Shown: positions 9,515 to 49,314 of the stretch, piece by piece
Position numbering within the stretch: the stretch's first letter is position 1
How the letters are laid out: each line of letters starts with the position of its first letter
DNA from: Desulfarculaceae bacterium
GTDB lineage: Bacteria > Desulfobacterota > Desulfarculia > Desulfarculales > Desulfarculaceae
Length of the DNA: 64,000 bases
Assembly (NCBI GenBank): GCA_020444545.1
Contig: JAHLKT010000006.1
Location: 124,001 to 188,000 of the forward strand
Direction of reading: 5' to 3'
Program-made: the position numbers and the translations under genes
The notes under the pieces: model-generated
What the model was told of the DNA's origin: nothing
Databases searched by the model: none
What the model saw: the letters and a program-made list of their open reading frames with translations, nothing else

Positions 9515-9630
9515 AGCAGGCAGGGCCGTAAATGAAAATAGCGAGAGTTTTATGGTTAAAATGATAGAAGAAAGTTCTCAGCTGATATCCTGCAGCAGCC
9601 AAAAACAAATGTTGAGAAGGGTGGGGACGG
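9515..9630. other. AT-richer gap at the left edge of a compositional island
   Basis: 116 bases markedly richer in A and T than the flanking genes, with no gene I can support. It marks the change from the parAB operon to the foreign-looking gene at 9631. Confidence 0.4.
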
Positions 9631-10290
9631 ATGGATCGCAAATCAAACCTGCTGCCACCAGTGGAGTCGACGAACGAGGACGAGCGCTTCGCCAAAGAGG
9701 CTATAGAAGCGCATGAGCGGTGGGAGCGGGAGCGTCAAGCTGTGGAGCAGGCACATTATGAAGAGATGCGACCAATCAAAGAGCATCTCGAAAAGGCACG
9801 CCAACTTGTAATCGAGAGCGGCGTCGGTGAGGCAGCCTGCTCTATCCTCCGGATAATGTGGCACTGGCCATCGAAGTCGGAGCGCGACGATTGGCAGACA
9901 CCGATTCCGGTCGATGGGCTTGACGGTGGCCAAATACCTAGACGCGAGCACGGTGCTCTGGGGGGCAAGTCGCTGGGCTGGACTTGGGACGGAGATACAT
10001 ACCAGATGGCGTTGGAGATCCGCAAAAATTACACAGACGACGACTTTGAGACGGGCGATCTACGTATGTGGGTGGCCGATGCAATGGTGATGCACCTAGA
10101 CGTCTCTCTGCAGCTCTCGGATGGATATGATAGTTGGCGTGTGTTTGGTGTTAGCGCGTTCAAAGCGGGACCCTGGATGGCTCAGCTCAATGAATTAGCC
10201 GGGCGTCTTCGAGTAGCGGAAGGGCAGGGGCTGAGGGATTACGAAAAAGAATTTTATGGCGAAAAAGCCAAGAAGATTGACCTAGACTAG
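9631..10290 (+). CDS. Hypothetical protein of foreign composition
   Basis: 219 residues, unrecognised. The first third is a charged helix likely to form a coiled coil (AHERWERERQAVEQAHYEEM and following), the middle is rich in Trp and Asp (MWHWPSKSERDDW, SLGWTWDGDTY), and the C-terminus is charged (YEKEFYGEKAKKIDLD). No signal peptide or membrane span. GGTGGGGACGG lies ahead of the ATG. Codon use is unlike the neighbours (many A/T-ending codons such as AAA, ATA, GAT, TTA) and the flanks are AT-rich, which suggests recent acquisition. No mobility gene or repeat was found beside it. Confidence 0.55.
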   Translation: MDRKSNLLPPVESTNEDERFAKEAIEAHERWERERQAVEQAHYEEMRPIKEHLEKARQLVIESGVGEAACSILRIMWHWPSKSERDDWQTPIPVDGLDGGQIPRREHGALGGKSLGWTWDGDTYQMALEIRKNYTDDDFETGDLRMWVADAMVMHLDVSLQLSDGYDSWRVFGVSAFKAGPWMAQLNELAGRLRVAEGQGLRDYEKEFYGEKAKKIDLD

Positions 10291-10409
10291 TAACCGTTTC
10301 GCCAAATCAATCGCGTTTTGTTTTTCCCTACTTTTTCAAGACATCTTAAAAAAGATCGTTTTTTATGGATGGGCGCGTCGCGTAAGACTAGCGCTTCCTG
10401 TATGGCCGC
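10291..10409. other. AT-rich convergent gap with an A/T hairpin
   Basis: Between convergent genes. It contains AAAAAAGATC directly followed by GTTTTTT around 10349-10366, a short A/T hairpin that could end transcription in either direction. No gene seen. Confidence 0.35.
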
Positions 10410-13307: not shown

Positions 13308-13310
13308 GCG

Positions 13311-13890
13311 GGGGAGGGCGAAGAAGCAAAAGAAGAAGAGGCGGGTAAAGGAAGAGGGGGAGAGCCGTCAGAGGGAAGCGTTTGGTGCGGCCATCCCGTC
13401 CACATCAGGTCCGGCCGCCGCTAGACACCGATCATCATGCCCGGTGAGAGCCTTCCGTCCCTGCGGCTCGGCATAACGACATCAAGGCACCAGCTTCCCA
13501 ACTGCCCCCCATGCTTTTTTTTAAAACCTCTTCTTGTCAAATTTGCTCCCTCCCGGCTGCACCGGTGCCAGCGCGGCGGCACAAGAAGCGCGCCAGCAGG
13601 TTGGGGCTCGGGGGATTTCTTGCCGCCTCGTGGGGCGAGGCGGCCCCGACAGGCAAGCTGTCGGGGGCAACAGGAGCGGGTGTTATGGTTTCTGCCGCCC
13701 GCGTCCGGTCAGACCCGCGCTGGCCTCAGGCCAGCTTCGCTCCGCTTAGTACCGCCATCAGACGCCGATCACACCGCCGCCCGGTGACACCCCGCTCCCG
13801 CGTCACTAAATCGCTGCCGCCCAAACCGCCCGCCCCAGCGCTTTCCCTTTATTCTTCACCTTCCAAACTTCTTGTTCTTTACCTGCCCAT
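13311..13890. repeat. Convergent-junction element, copy A (purine arm, structured core, pyrimidine arm)
   Basis: Fills most of a 656-base gap between convergent genes. Left arm 13311-13378 is almost pure purine; right arm 13841-13888 is almost pure pyrimidine, and the two share partly complementary stretches (AGGCGGGTAAAGGAAG against CTTTACCTGCCC). A second pyrimidine tract at 13508-13555 suggests two units joined. Inside, AGACACCGATCA (13423-13434) and AGACGCCGATCA (13760-13771) are direct repeats, each followed by CCCGGTGA. Three strong hairpins lie at 13622-13644, 13644-13666 and 13719-13735. No credible protein gene. Confidence 0.5.
13622..13666. other. Two adjoining perfect 9-bp hairpins inside copy A
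   Basis: GCCGCCTCG (13622-13630) pairs with CGAGGCGGC (13636-13644) over five bases; the adjoining CCCCGACAG (13644-13652) pairs with CTGTCGGGG (13658-13666) over five bases. Their strength suggests a folded RNA or DNA structure. Confidence 0.6.
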
Positions 13891-13963
13891 GGACGCACCC
13901 CTCCCCGCAGCCCCACAGCCGCCATGCCTATTCCTGACTTTTTGTTTTTTGCTCGGGCCCGGC

Positions 13964-24128: not shown

Positions 24129-24382
24129 GAGAAAGAGAAAAGATAAAGAGAGAAGAGGTTGGGAATAGGGGGCGGGGGAGGGGGCCCTGCTCATGCGCGG
24201 CGGCGGGGTGTCGGTGGGGCGTCCGACTGGAACCGGCCCTGACGCCTCCTTAACGGCGCACCAGCTATAACGCGGGCCCCACGTGACCCCGCCTCTACAG
24301 CGGGCCCGCCGGGATTAGCCCGGCGCATAGCATTGCACCGAGCCTTCTTCCCTTCCTAACAACTCTTTTCTTTCCCTGCCCC
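24129..24382. repeat. Convergent-junction element, copy B
   Basis: Lies between queE and the octaheme cytochrome gene, which converge. Left arm 24129-24182 is purine-rich (AAAGAGAAAAGATAAAGAG and onwards); right arm 24341-24382 is pyrimidine-rich (CTTCTTCCCTTCC, CTCTTTTCTTTCCC). The arms are roughly complementary. The core (24183-24340) is GC-rich with no supported gene. Same layout as copies A and C. Confidence 0.5.
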
Positions 24383-24390
24383 ACAAGCAA

Positions 24391-24417
24391 GCGCCCCGCC
24401 GTTTTCCGGCGAGGCGC
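24391..24417 (-). terminator. Terminator hairpin after the octaheme cytochrome gene
   Basis: GCGCCCCGCCG (24391-24401) and CGGCGAGGCGC (24407-24417) pair with one mismatch. On the minus strand the U-rich stretch that follows is short, so strength is moderate. Confidence 0.6.
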
Positions 24418-24440
24418 TGTTCTTATATAGATGTTCGCGG

Positions 24441-46348: not shown

Positions 46349-48298
46349 ATGAAAGTTCGCTTCGAGCCCTTCGGGGTGGAGGTGGAGGCCCAGGCGGGAG
46401 ACCGCCTGTTGGACCTGGCCCTGGAAGCCGGGGTGCACATCAACGCATCCTGCGGCGGCGAGGGTGTGTGCGGCAAGTGCCGCGTGCATCTGGAGTCCGG
46501 TAATGTCGAGGGCGGCCTCAGCGAGAAAATAAGCGCGGCCGACGCCGAGGCCGGGGTGCGCCTGGCCTGCCAGAGCCGCATCGTGGAAGACATCACCGTG
46601 CTCATCCCGGTGCAGTCGGGCATGGACAAGGTGGGGCTCAATGCCCTGGCCGCGGGTTCGGCCCAGGTGGCCAAGCTCATCGGCGCCGAGGAGTTGAAAG
46701 AGGAGGACCGCTTCGATCCAGCCCTGTCCAAGGTGACGGTGAGCGCGACCCCGCCTTCCCTGGAAGACAACCGCAACGACGTGGCCCGTCTCTTGGGCGC
46801 CTTGCGCGCCGCCGGCGAGAGCCGCTTCGTATTCGACTTCGAAGCCATCCGCGACCTGCCCCACGCCTGGCGCGACGGCGAGTGGACCGTAACCACCACC
46901 ATCGACCGCCCCATCGACCGCGAGACCGGCCGCAACCACGTTATCCGGGTGGAGCCCGGCGACACCTCTGACAAGAACCTGGCCCTGGCCATCGACTTGG
47001 GCACCACCACCGTGTGGGCCCAGCTGCTGGACCTGCACACCGGCGAGATCCTGGGCACCGAGGGCGATTTCAACGAGCAGATCTCCTACGGCGAGGACGT
47101 GATCAGCCGCATCGTCTACGCGGGCAAGCCCGGCGGCATGGAGAAGCTCCAGCAGGCGGCGTCCCGCTCCATCAACAAGGTCATGGCCCAGGTTTCAAAG
47201 CGCACCGGCGTGGACCTGGGCGAGGTGAGCCTGGCCACCCTGGCCGGCAACACCACCATGACCCAGCTTTTCCTGGGCGTGGAGCCCAAGTGGCTGCGCC
47301 TGGACCCCTACGTGCCCAGCGCGGCCTACTACCCGCCGGTAAAGGCCTCGGACTTCGGCCTTGAGCTGCCGGACCACGTGTCCACCCTGGTCTTCCCGGC
47401 GGTGGCCTCCTATGTGGGCGGCGACGTGGTGGCCGGGGTCATGGGCGTGGGCATGCACCGCTCCGAGGCGCTCACCCTGTTCATCGACATGGGCACCAAC
47501 GGCGAGGTGGTGGTGGGCAACCAGGATTGGATGGCCTGCGCGGCGGCCAGCGCGGGGCCCGCCTTTGAGGGCGGCGGCATCAAGTTCGGCATGCGCGCCG
47601 CCCGGGGCGCCATCGAGAACTTCTCGGTGGACCCCTTCACCGGCGAGCCCGCCCTGATCACCGTGGGCCACGCCAAGCCCCGGGGCATCTGCGGCTCGGG
47701 CCTCATCGCCATCGTGGCCAGCCTGCTCATGGCCGGGATCATCGACGAGCGCGGCCGCTTCAACGTGGACCATCCCAGCGACCGGCTGCGCGTGGGCGAT
47801 GACGGCCCGGAATACGTGCTGGCCTGGGCAAAGGACACGGCCATCGACCGCGACATCGCCCTCACCGAGCCGGACGTGGACAACCTCATGCGGGCCAAGG
47901 CGGCCATGTACGCCGCCTATATGACCCTGCTCGAAGGGGTGGGCCTTACCATCCACGACCTGGAGCGGGTCATCCTGGCCGGCGGCTTCGGGCAGTCCAT
48001 CAACCTGGAGCGCGCCATCCTCATTGGCCTGCTGCCCGAGCTGCCTCTGGACAAGTACACCTTCGTGGGCAACGGCTCCCTGCTGGGCTGCCGTTTGGCG
48101 GCCATGAGCAACCCGCTTCGGGCCGAGGTGGGCGGCATCGTGGAGCAGATGACCAACTTCGAGCTTTCGGTGGCCCCGGGCTACATGGACAACTACACCG
48201 GCAGCCAGTTCCTGCCCCACACCGAGGCCAACAGCCTGTTCCCCGAGACCTACCAGCGCTTGCAAGAGGCCAAGGCCGCGGTCAAGGCCGCCGGCTAA
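46349..48298 (+). CDS. RACo-like ferredoxin-ASKHA protein (reductive activator of corrinoid proteins)
   Basis: 649 residues. N-terminal 2Fe-2S ferredoxin (NASCGGEGVCGKCRVHLESG with the last cysteine in LACQSRI), a middle domain, and a C-terminal ASKHA ATPase (LALAIDLGTTTVWAQLLDL; ATLAGNTTMTQLFLGV; FIDMGTNGEVVVGN; RGICGSGLIAIVASLL; LAGGFGQSINLERAILIG). RACo-type proteins use ATP hydrolysis to reduce inactive cob(II)amide corrinoid proteins. No corrinoid protein or methyltransferase is adjacent, so the client is elsewhere. Confidence 0.9.
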   Translation: MKVRFEPFGVEVEAQAGDRLLDLALEAGVHINASCGGEGVCGKCRVHLESGNVEGGLSEKISAADAEAGVRLACQSRIVEDITVLIPVQSGMDKVGLNALAAGSAQVAKLIGAEELKEEDRFDPALSKVTVSATPPSLEDNRNDVARLLGALRAAGESRFVFDFEAIRDLPHAWRDGEWTVTTTIDRPIDRETGRNHVIRVEPGDTSDKNLALAIDLGTTTVWAQLLDLHTGEILGTEGDFNEQISYGEDVISRIVYAGKPGGMEKLQQAASRSINKVMAQVSKRTGVDLGEVSLATLAGNTTMTQLFLGVEPKWLRLDPYVPSAAYYPPVKASDFGLELPDHVSTLVFPAVASYVGGDVVAGVMGVGMHRSEALTLFIDMGTNGEVVVGNQDWMACAAASAGPAFEGGGIKFGMRAARGAIENFSVDPFTGEPALITVGHAKPRGICGSGLIAIVASLLMAGIIDERGRFNVDHPSDRLRVGDDGPEYVLAWAKDTAIDRDIALTEPDVDNLMRAKAAMYAAYMTLLEGVGLTIHDLERVILAGGFGQSINLERAILIGLLPELPLDKYTFVGNGSLLGCRLAAMSNPLRAEVGGIVEQMTNFELSVAPGYMDNYTGSQFLPHTEANSLFPETYQRLQEAKAAVKAAG

Positions 48299-48321
48299 GC
48301 CGAACTTTACTAGTGCAACGG

Positions 48322-48349
48322 GCGCCTCTCTTCGGAGAGGCGCTTTTTT
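48322..48349 (+). terminator. Intrinsic terminator of the ASKHA gene
   Basis: GCGCCTCTC (48322-48330), TTCG loop, GAGAGGCGC (48335-48343), then six T. Textbook form. Confidence 0.93.
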
Positions 48350-48352
48350 ATT

Positions 48353-48634
48353 GGGGCGAAAGGGAGGGGGGAGAGAGAAAAGAGGGGAGAAGTCGGTGAA
48401 GGAAAAGAGGGGAAACGGGTGGCGCGGCGTTGTTGCCAGCTCGGGCGTCGGTGATGGCAGCGCGCGTGGGACGAACTGGGCGTCCTGAGAGCGCCGCCGT
48501 GTGGTGGCGAGGGCGAGAGGATCAGGAGAACGGATAGGAGTGGGGGAGCTGGCGGCTGCCTGGAGTGCGCACAACAGACGGCGCGGAGCACAACCGACCT
48601 TTAGCTTTTCACCGACCTCTTATTGCCTTCTCTG
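48353..48634. repeat. Convergent-junction element, copy C
   Basis: Lies between the ASKHA gene terminator and the EndoIII-like gene, which converge. Left arm 48353-48417 is purine-rich (GGGAGGGGGGAGAGAG and onwards), right arm about 48590-48634 is pyrimidine-rich. TCGGTGAA (48393-48400) in the left arm has its exact complement TTCACCGA (48608-48615) in the right arm, inside longer partial complementarity. The core reads GCCATCACCGACGCC on the minus strand (48458-48444), close to GCCATCAGACGCC in copy A (13754-13766). No supported gene. Confidence 0.5.
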
Positions 48635-48651
48635 GCCGAAACCGCCTCGCC

Positions 48652-49314
48652 TCACAGTTCCACCAAGGGCAGCCAGTCCTGAGCCGGGCATCCCTCGCAG
48701 CGCGGGTTGGTCTTCTTGCAGCGCTCCTTGCCCAGGCGCACCAACAGGGCGTGGTACTCGTTGAACAGCGCCACCTCGGCGGGCAGGGCGTCCATGAACA
48801 CCTCTTGCAGCTCGAAGTAGCCCATATCCGGCTCGGCCAGGCAGTGGCGGCCCAGGATGCGGAAGGTGTAGGCGTCCACCACGAACACCGGCTTTTGCGC
48901 CGCGTACAGGGCGATGCTGTCCGCGGTCTCCGGGCCCACGCCTTTCACCTCCAGCAAGCTGCGCCGCACCGTGTCCGTGCCCTGGGAGAAGAACCACTCC
49001 AGGTCGCCATCCCAACGCTCATGGATCATGGCCAACAGGTTGGCCAGGCGCTTGGCCTTTAGGTTGTAGTAGCCCGCCGGGCGGATCAGTTCGGCCAGCT
49101 TTTGCGGGGGCAGGGCGCTCAGGGCGGGCAGGGAAAGCTCATCGGCCCGCTTCAGGTTGGCGATGGCCTTCTCCACATTGCCCCAATTGGTGTTCTGGGT
49201 GAGCACCGCGCCGATCATCACCTCGAAGGGCGTGTCCCCGGGCCACCAGTCCTGAGGGCCGTAGGCGTCCAAAAGGCGCTGATAGAGTTCCTGCAAGAGC
49301 GAGCGGGTGGACAT
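48652..49314 (-). CDS. Endonuclease III-like HhH-GPD DNA glycosylase
   Basis: 220 residues. HhH-GPD fold: VMIGAVLTQNTNWGNVEKAI, the hairpin and GPD loop LEVKGVGPETADSIALY, then FVVDAYTFRILGR with the catalytic aspartate. The lysine that gives Nth lyase activity is replaced by Glu (GPETAD), as in monofunctional MagIII-type alkyladenine glycosylases. The C-terminal cysteines read CKKTNPRCEGC with the fourth cluster cysteine absent, so a normal 4Fe-4S site is doubtful. It probably removes alkylated bases, but the substrate is not shown. Confidence 0.85.
   Translation of the reverse strand: MSTRSLLQELYQRLLDAYGPQDWWPGDTPFEVMIGAVLTQNTNWGNVEKAIANLKRADELSLPALSALPPQKLAELIRPAGYYNLKAKRLANLLAMIHERWDGDLEWFFSQGTDTVRRSLLEVKGVGPETADSIALYAAQKPVFVVDAYTFRILGRHCLAEPDMGYFELQEVFMDALPAEVALFNEYHALLVRLGKERCKKTNPRCEGCPAQDWLPLVEL

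Follow-up and report, generated by a model that had tools for sequence, protein, structure and literature searches.

The convergent gap at positions 48299-48651 of the window (the whole stretch of 64,000 nucleotides analysed here, C6:124001-188000 of the 4.38-Mb, GC-rich Desulfarculaceae genome G000) carries one copy of a family of purine-armed repeats. The family is real and apparently undescribed, and our search of the literature turned up no account of purine arms paired in this way where genes converge. We interpret it, with evenly balanced confidence, as a genus-restricted, dispersed paired repeat that resembles REP dimers and that would survive mainly between convergent genes because it is tolerated there.

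Organization of the copies in the window

The target gap (353 bp) lies between an acsV-like gene (46349-48298, plus strand), which is of the AcsV corrinoid-activation type with a score below the curated cut-off, and a gene for an HhH-GPD DNA glycosylase (48652-49314, minus strand). The acsV-like gene has an ordinary intrinsic terminator, made of a hairpin and a T run (48322-48349, plus strand), which is located upstream of the arm and is conserved in genome G005; the purine tract comes after it. The left GA-rich arm is a tract of 75 nt with at least 86% purines (48348-48422, plus strand), whose motif window (48379-48410) is degenerate, with a weight matrix (PSSM) score of 14.4. The right arm, AATAAGAGGTCGGTGAAAAG (48598-48629, minus strand), scores 20.2 and faces the left arm at a motif-to-motif distance of 235 bp. 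The spacer (48411-48597), which separates the 32-nt windows of the two arms by 187 bp, has a diverged ortholog in G005; it shows no likeness to the other copies and its fold is not unusual.

The other long convergent gaps of the window are those of copy A (13308-13963, 656 bp) and copy B (24129-24440, 312 bp). The preliminary description of all three gaps, with a purine arm after the plus-strand gene and a pyrimidine arm before the end of the minus-strand gene, was confirmed. In copy B, the left arm AAGAGGTTGGGAA (24145-24176, plus strand, PSSM 27.9) and the right arm (24342-24373, minus strand, PSSM 21.7) are 213 bp apart from motif to motif. In copy A, the left arm (13328-13359, plus strand, PSSM 23.3) and an internal inward-facing arm, AAGAGGTTTTAAA (13509-13540, minus strand, PSSM 22.5), form an element of 197 bp, and the right-hand arm, AAGAAGTTTGGAA (13850-13881, minus strand), scores 29.9. 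BLASTN between the copies bore out the expected similarity for the arms and found essentially nothing outside them. A single homologous element was rejected, the target gap matching only itself in BLASTN against its own genome and the cores sharing nothing.

In the target gap, TCGGTGAA at 48393-48400 does have its exact complement, TTCACCGA, at 48608-48615. The special status given to this complementarity did not hold up: the longest exact match between the arms (9 nt) was reached by 33 of 400 composition shuffles and by one of the right ends of 21 other gaps.

Our own gene caller agreed with the convergent gene ends previously listed for the window, except for 9515-10409, which it leaves open; a 219-aa ORF at 9631-10290 yields the 119-bp gap reported there. 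This ORF, rejected by the caller, is in DNA of lower G+C than its surroundings and is probably a recently acquired gene.

Conserved arms and unrelated spacers

The arms carry a common 13-mer, AAGAGGTTKGGAA, followed by about 8 purines. When at most one mismatch was allowed and the reversed pattern was used as a control, whole genomes contained 26 copies versus 3 (G000), 15 versus 1 (G005) and 70 versus 2 (G007), while G001, G002, G003, G004 and G006 had 4-7 copies versus 0-2 reversed ones. The purine-extended 13-mer was absent from 12 genomes belonging to six other genera of the family. With the 32-nt weight matrix, which was partly built from the arms of these very gaps so that the counts against the reversed control are the cleaner evidence, 18 of the 24 matches scoring at least 16 in 864 kb of G000 were in convergent gaps and 4 were in genes. 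Neighbouring sites, scored at a lower matrix threshold of 14, were inward in 38 cases, direct in 9 and outward in none. Their spacing was mostly 195-242 bp in G000 and G005; for G007 the usual range was 218-312 bp.

The arms have a sharp inner edge. Across 42 elements, the purine bias fades outwards over about 30 nt, and there was no target-site duplication above a swapped-flank null. The missing duplication and the lack of a sharp outer end are as expected of HUH elements. The arms are nearly free of C on the sense strand and grade from A-rich outside to G-rich inside. Their consensus, AAGAGGTTKGGAA and the purines that follow, has no self-complement, the sequence before it in the purine arms contains no palindrome, and neither a GTAG nor a CGTC tag is present at the aligned arm positions. 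Two arms from one element resemble each other no more closely than arms taken from separate elements, and no co-variation was found between them. The elements do have the organisation of a REP dimer or REPIN, with two units inverted around a spacer, intergenic and at 3' ends.

The spacers have no sequence common to any two copies. The motifs GCCATCA and GACGCC, put forward as a shared core, occur in 3 and 5 of 28 cores, respectively, and no core k-mer exceeded its frequency in shuffles. A hypervariable or cassette-swapped core had been suspected, since orthologous cores align near background despite a fourfold identity of 0.76-0.83. This idea was rejected: some arm-free convergent gaps are equally unalignable, and the core at the glycosylase junction keeps a homologous signal. 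For these two reasons the core is probably ordinary DNA with a fast turnover. A phage or plasmid origin was also rejected, with four exact motif matches in IMG/VR, about the chance number by our estimate, and no plasmid match.

Distribution among intergenic regions

Tracts, defined as 36-mers with at least 86% purines or pyrimidines, were counted in 864 kb of G000 (about 20% of the genome, the sample to which the gap counts of G000 refer), with genes called, as throughout the analysis, by a home-made hexamer-based caller and not taken from a reference annotation. Among gaps of at least 250 bp, they were found in 8 of 22 convergent, 2 of 45 tandem and 1 of 34 divergent gaps. Arms are thus not a feature of every long convergent junction, as had been claimed; the remaining long convergent gaps contain tRNAs, other repeats or low-GC ORFs. 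The enrichment at convergent pairs did extend beyond the window, where tracts occurred in 5 of 18 convergent gaps of this length versus 3 of 75 others (2 of 45 tandem and 1 of 30 divergent; Fisher p=0.006). Coding DNA had just 8 tracts in 777 kb.

Gene contexts in G007 rest on short contigs, and its loci were picked for carrying the motif, so that the numbers show where elements are located and not the share of gaps of each kind: the arm-bearing gaps comprised 15 convergent, 5 divergent and 12 tandem ones, and 9 of the 12 tandem gaps had both arms. The association with head-on gene ends in the preliminary description is therefore not exclusive. The refutation that this description had set for itself, the same arms at tandem or divergent junctions, is borne out in part, with 17 of 32 arm-bearing gaps non-convergent, although convergent gaps are still over-represented (15/32, where the gap counts of G000 predict 32/248).

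An unrelated control repeat of G000, CATTGCGAGG...GCAATCTC, showed a similar distribution, GCAATCTC being present in 7 of 22 convergent, 1 of 45 tandem and 0 of 34 divergent gaps of at least 250 bp. Since unrelated repeats are equally confined to convergent junctions, location alone is poor evidence for a function in termination. The normalised conservation score between G000 and G005 was 0.18 for convergent gaps and about 0.55 for other gaps, and this poor conservation as a class marks convergent gaps as the tolerant places of G000.

A dispersed repeat second to the purine-arm family, GTCATTGCGAGGAGCGGCGG ... GCAATCTC, is nearly confined to convergent gaps in G000 (for example C1:211630-211887, 230277-230711 and 318883-319319). 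It was also seen at many loci of G007 (L126, L139, L147, L158, L243 and L258) and is nested there inside about five purine-arm elements. In the comparison of G000 with G005, both the sequence and the length of convergent gaps have changed much more than those of tandem or divergent gaps, with lengths of 782 versus 222, 435 versus 73, 437 versus 77 and 322 versus 1208 bp.

Distribution among species of the genus

The elements at the glycosylase junction and at the C6:111045 junction are common to G000, G005 and the outgroup G007, and neither junction has an element in G001, G003, G006 or, where it was covered, G004. At the 24441 junction, G000 and G005 have a clear element and G007 and G002 a degenerate one, and the element is missing from G001, G003 and G006 (and from G004 where covered). 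The C2:55713 gap measures 280-297 bp in G000 and G005 versus 2-6 bp in G001, G003, G004 and G006, and nearly all copies are missing from the sister clade that these four genomes make up. The rooted acsV tree placed G002 outside, L006 (probably G007) with or next to G002, and the G003/G004 lineage as sister to G000 and G005 with full support; a four-gene tree grouped G001 and G006 with G003 and G004. The trees and the shared junctions together indicate that the junction elements are probably ancestral and that the sister clade lost its copies, the alternative being an independent gain of elements at hot spots. When G000 and G005 were compared, arm similarity was higher between orthologous elements than between different loci (p=0.03), and the cores gave little or no signal.

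Another repeat, with GGCTTCGTCAG / TGGCGAAGCC ends and GCCGGACGCCTTG inside, fills convergent gaps that lack the purine-arm element in the clade of G001, G003, G004 and G006. It is located downstream of acsV in L003 and L004, and also in L146, L144 and C1:24591-24844.

Possible relation to Y1 transposases

Genes for Y1 transposases (Y1_Tnp, TnpA-REP type) were found in G000 (2), G002 (2), G007 (3) and G006 (1, partial), and none was found in G001, G003, G004 and G005. Units of the form GGGTGGCC-hairpin-TTGCGNAGCAAC-AAGAGGTT flank the Y1 genes at G000 C1:51226, G007 C386:14273 and G002 C3:5287, and the two units of G000 face inward, about 100 bp apart. The purine arms share AAGAGGTT with the ends of these repeats, yet without the preceding hairpin, the arm-only sequence AAGAGGTTTGGAA contrasting with hairpin-AAGAGGTT. 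Some purine-arm gaps hold hairpin-AAGAGGTT units as well (L134, L135, L138, C1:68409 and C1:73346). G005 has elements without a Y1 gene, while G002 has Y1 genes and few elements. The AAGAGGTT match, a tag of 8 bases found after the fact, and the inward arrangement common to both kinds of repeat are a lead to a possible connection between the arms and Y1 transposases and not a proof of it.

The hairpin repeats that flank Y1 genes in three species, GGGTGGCCCAGACAGC..GCTGTCTGGG-TTGCGNAGCAAC-AAGAGGTT (L097:1440-1680, L269:1100-2030 and L271:1330-2070), appear to form a REP family that is specific to this genus and has not been described before.

Explanations of the purine-arm family

Among the readings offered at the outset (a two-way terminator, a structured 3' RNA and a dispersed MITE-like repeat), the dispersed repeat is the best supported, because of the shared 13-mer, the inward pairs, the 25-70 copies per genome, the presence and absence among species and the unrelated repeat that is equally confined. 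The two inward-facing sites (AAGAGGTTKGGAA and about 8 purines), with mostly 195-310 bp of unrelated DNA between them, would be the recognition arms of a REPIN/BIME-like system, and a Y1 transposase may recognise the arms or have spread them. Copies would have spread in the past, some before the lineages of G007 and of the window's genome split, and would have survived mostly in convergent gaps, where insertions leave promoters undisturbed; tolerance would then be the cause of the convergent bias, and any effect on transcription would be secondary. Several observations count against this explanation. Copies that arise by transposition usually have their interior in common, whereas each spacer here differs from all others. 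The arms lack the hairpin of the Y1-flanking repeats, the AAGAGGTT match is only 8 bases long and was found after the fact, and Y1 genes and elements do not go together in G005 and G002. The identical motif amid unrelated spacers, together with the arm conservation between G000 and G005, points to some constraint on the arms.

The leading alternative, which we consider possible but unlikely, is a two-way terminator or antisense guard, in which Rho or a weak RNA-DNA hybrid would stop read-through before its antisense entry into the neighbouring gene. The opposing transcript would read the arm as a G-free, C/U-rich and then U-rich stretch, resembling a rut site, and the composition of the arms, with their almost C-free sense strand, fits in this antisense-entry direction. 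Known rut sites are rich in YC, have U/C>G and often lie antisense (PMC12350095). Both G000 and G007 also show an enrichment of arms at convergent ends, Rho is present, and among long convergent gaps 4 of 5 with strong arms, but 0 of 5 without arms, have retained their length in the comparison of G000 with G005. The arms contain no intrinsic terminator (GC hairpin and T run), and at 12 of 13 strong-arm ends no canonical terminator was found within 200 nt; however, most non-arm ends are without one too (107/142), and since the difference is not significant the idea that arms replace canonical terminators was rejected. Weak arms, moreover, follow ordinary terminators, and a rut site does not predict a sequence-specific 13-mer. 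A dedicated function as two-way terminator is not supported, given the paired arms in tandem and divergent gaps of G007 and the sister clade, which manages the same junctions without elements. Loss of Rho was rejected as the reason for this absence, since 7 of 8 genomes have a Rho match above the cut-off, among them genomes of the clade without elements.

A paired DNA insulator, in which a dedicated protein would bind both inward sites and close off the converging units, and whose sites would have vanished in one clade with the protein, seems to us doubtful. We regard as improbable the proposal that the arms are paired DNA-binding sites where transcription ends, occupied by a nucleoid, supercoiling or roadblock protein and lost with this factor in G001, G003, G004 and G006. 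Such sites would agree with the asymmetric motif, the inward pairs with a preferred spacing, the sharp inner and soft outer edge, the arms without covariation and the loss across junctions in one clade, but there is no candidate factor and the spacing is broad. The BIMEs of E. coli bind gyrase, but gyrase sites of the E. coli type are not known to have such a motif. If the arms are protein sites, the genus provides natural comparisons with and without them at identical junctions.

A structured RNA of about 230 nt in the 3' UTR, closed by a helix between the arms, is very unlikely. The consensus sequences of the two arms complement each other, and folding predictions for single sequences pair them, but an element's own arms paired no better than swapped ones (p=0.72/0.96 with n=16; p=0.58/0.83 with n=20 and 22), the cores fold like shuffles and share no motif, and Rfam gave no match anywhere in the window. 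Strand-biased mutation or purine loading at 3' ends, which could account for the purine skew on the 3' sides of long convergent gaps, scarcely deserves consideration, since the count of a specific 13-mer with TTT inside a purine tract (26 versus 3) refutes composition as the whole explanation and tandem 3' ends have no skew.

Comparison with known systems

Bidirectional intrinsic terminators (A-tract, hairpin, T-tract) resemble the purine-arm elements in being located at convergent ends with a purine side near each stop codon and a pyrimidine side distal to it. They differ in that the arms described here are 50-75 nt of GA/CT instead of A/T runs, that the spacer of about 170-190 bp has no shared or unusually stable hairpin, and that the elements also occur in tandem and divergent gaps of G007. 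MITEs and other miniature elements bounded by TIRs, such as TIMEs, are likewise dispersed, measure about 200-300 bp, have inward-facing arms and are present or absent according to the species. Unlike them, the purine-arm copies have no shared interior, target-site duplication or sharp outer end, and the arms within one copy are no more alike than those of separate copies.

The closest likeness is to REP dimers, REPINs and BIMEs, which also consist of a short conserved unit in inverted pairs around an unrelated spacer and are intergenic. REP dimers are found mostly at convergent or unidirectional 3' ends near the stop codon (PMC3733652, PMC1525189). They number hundreds, versus 25-70 copies for the purine-arm family, in which the unit is a non-palindromic purine stretch without a GTAG/CGTC tag and the spacing is mostly 195-310 bp. 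In the strict sense the family falls outside the REP class, since the arm is not palindromic and the unit forms no stem-loop. The repeats that flank the Y1 genes of this genus end in the AAGAGGTT that the purine arms also contain. The family adds a paired, non-palindromic and purine-rich type to the known intergenic repeats of 3' ends, and the shared AAGAGGTT may connect it with REP-type transposases.
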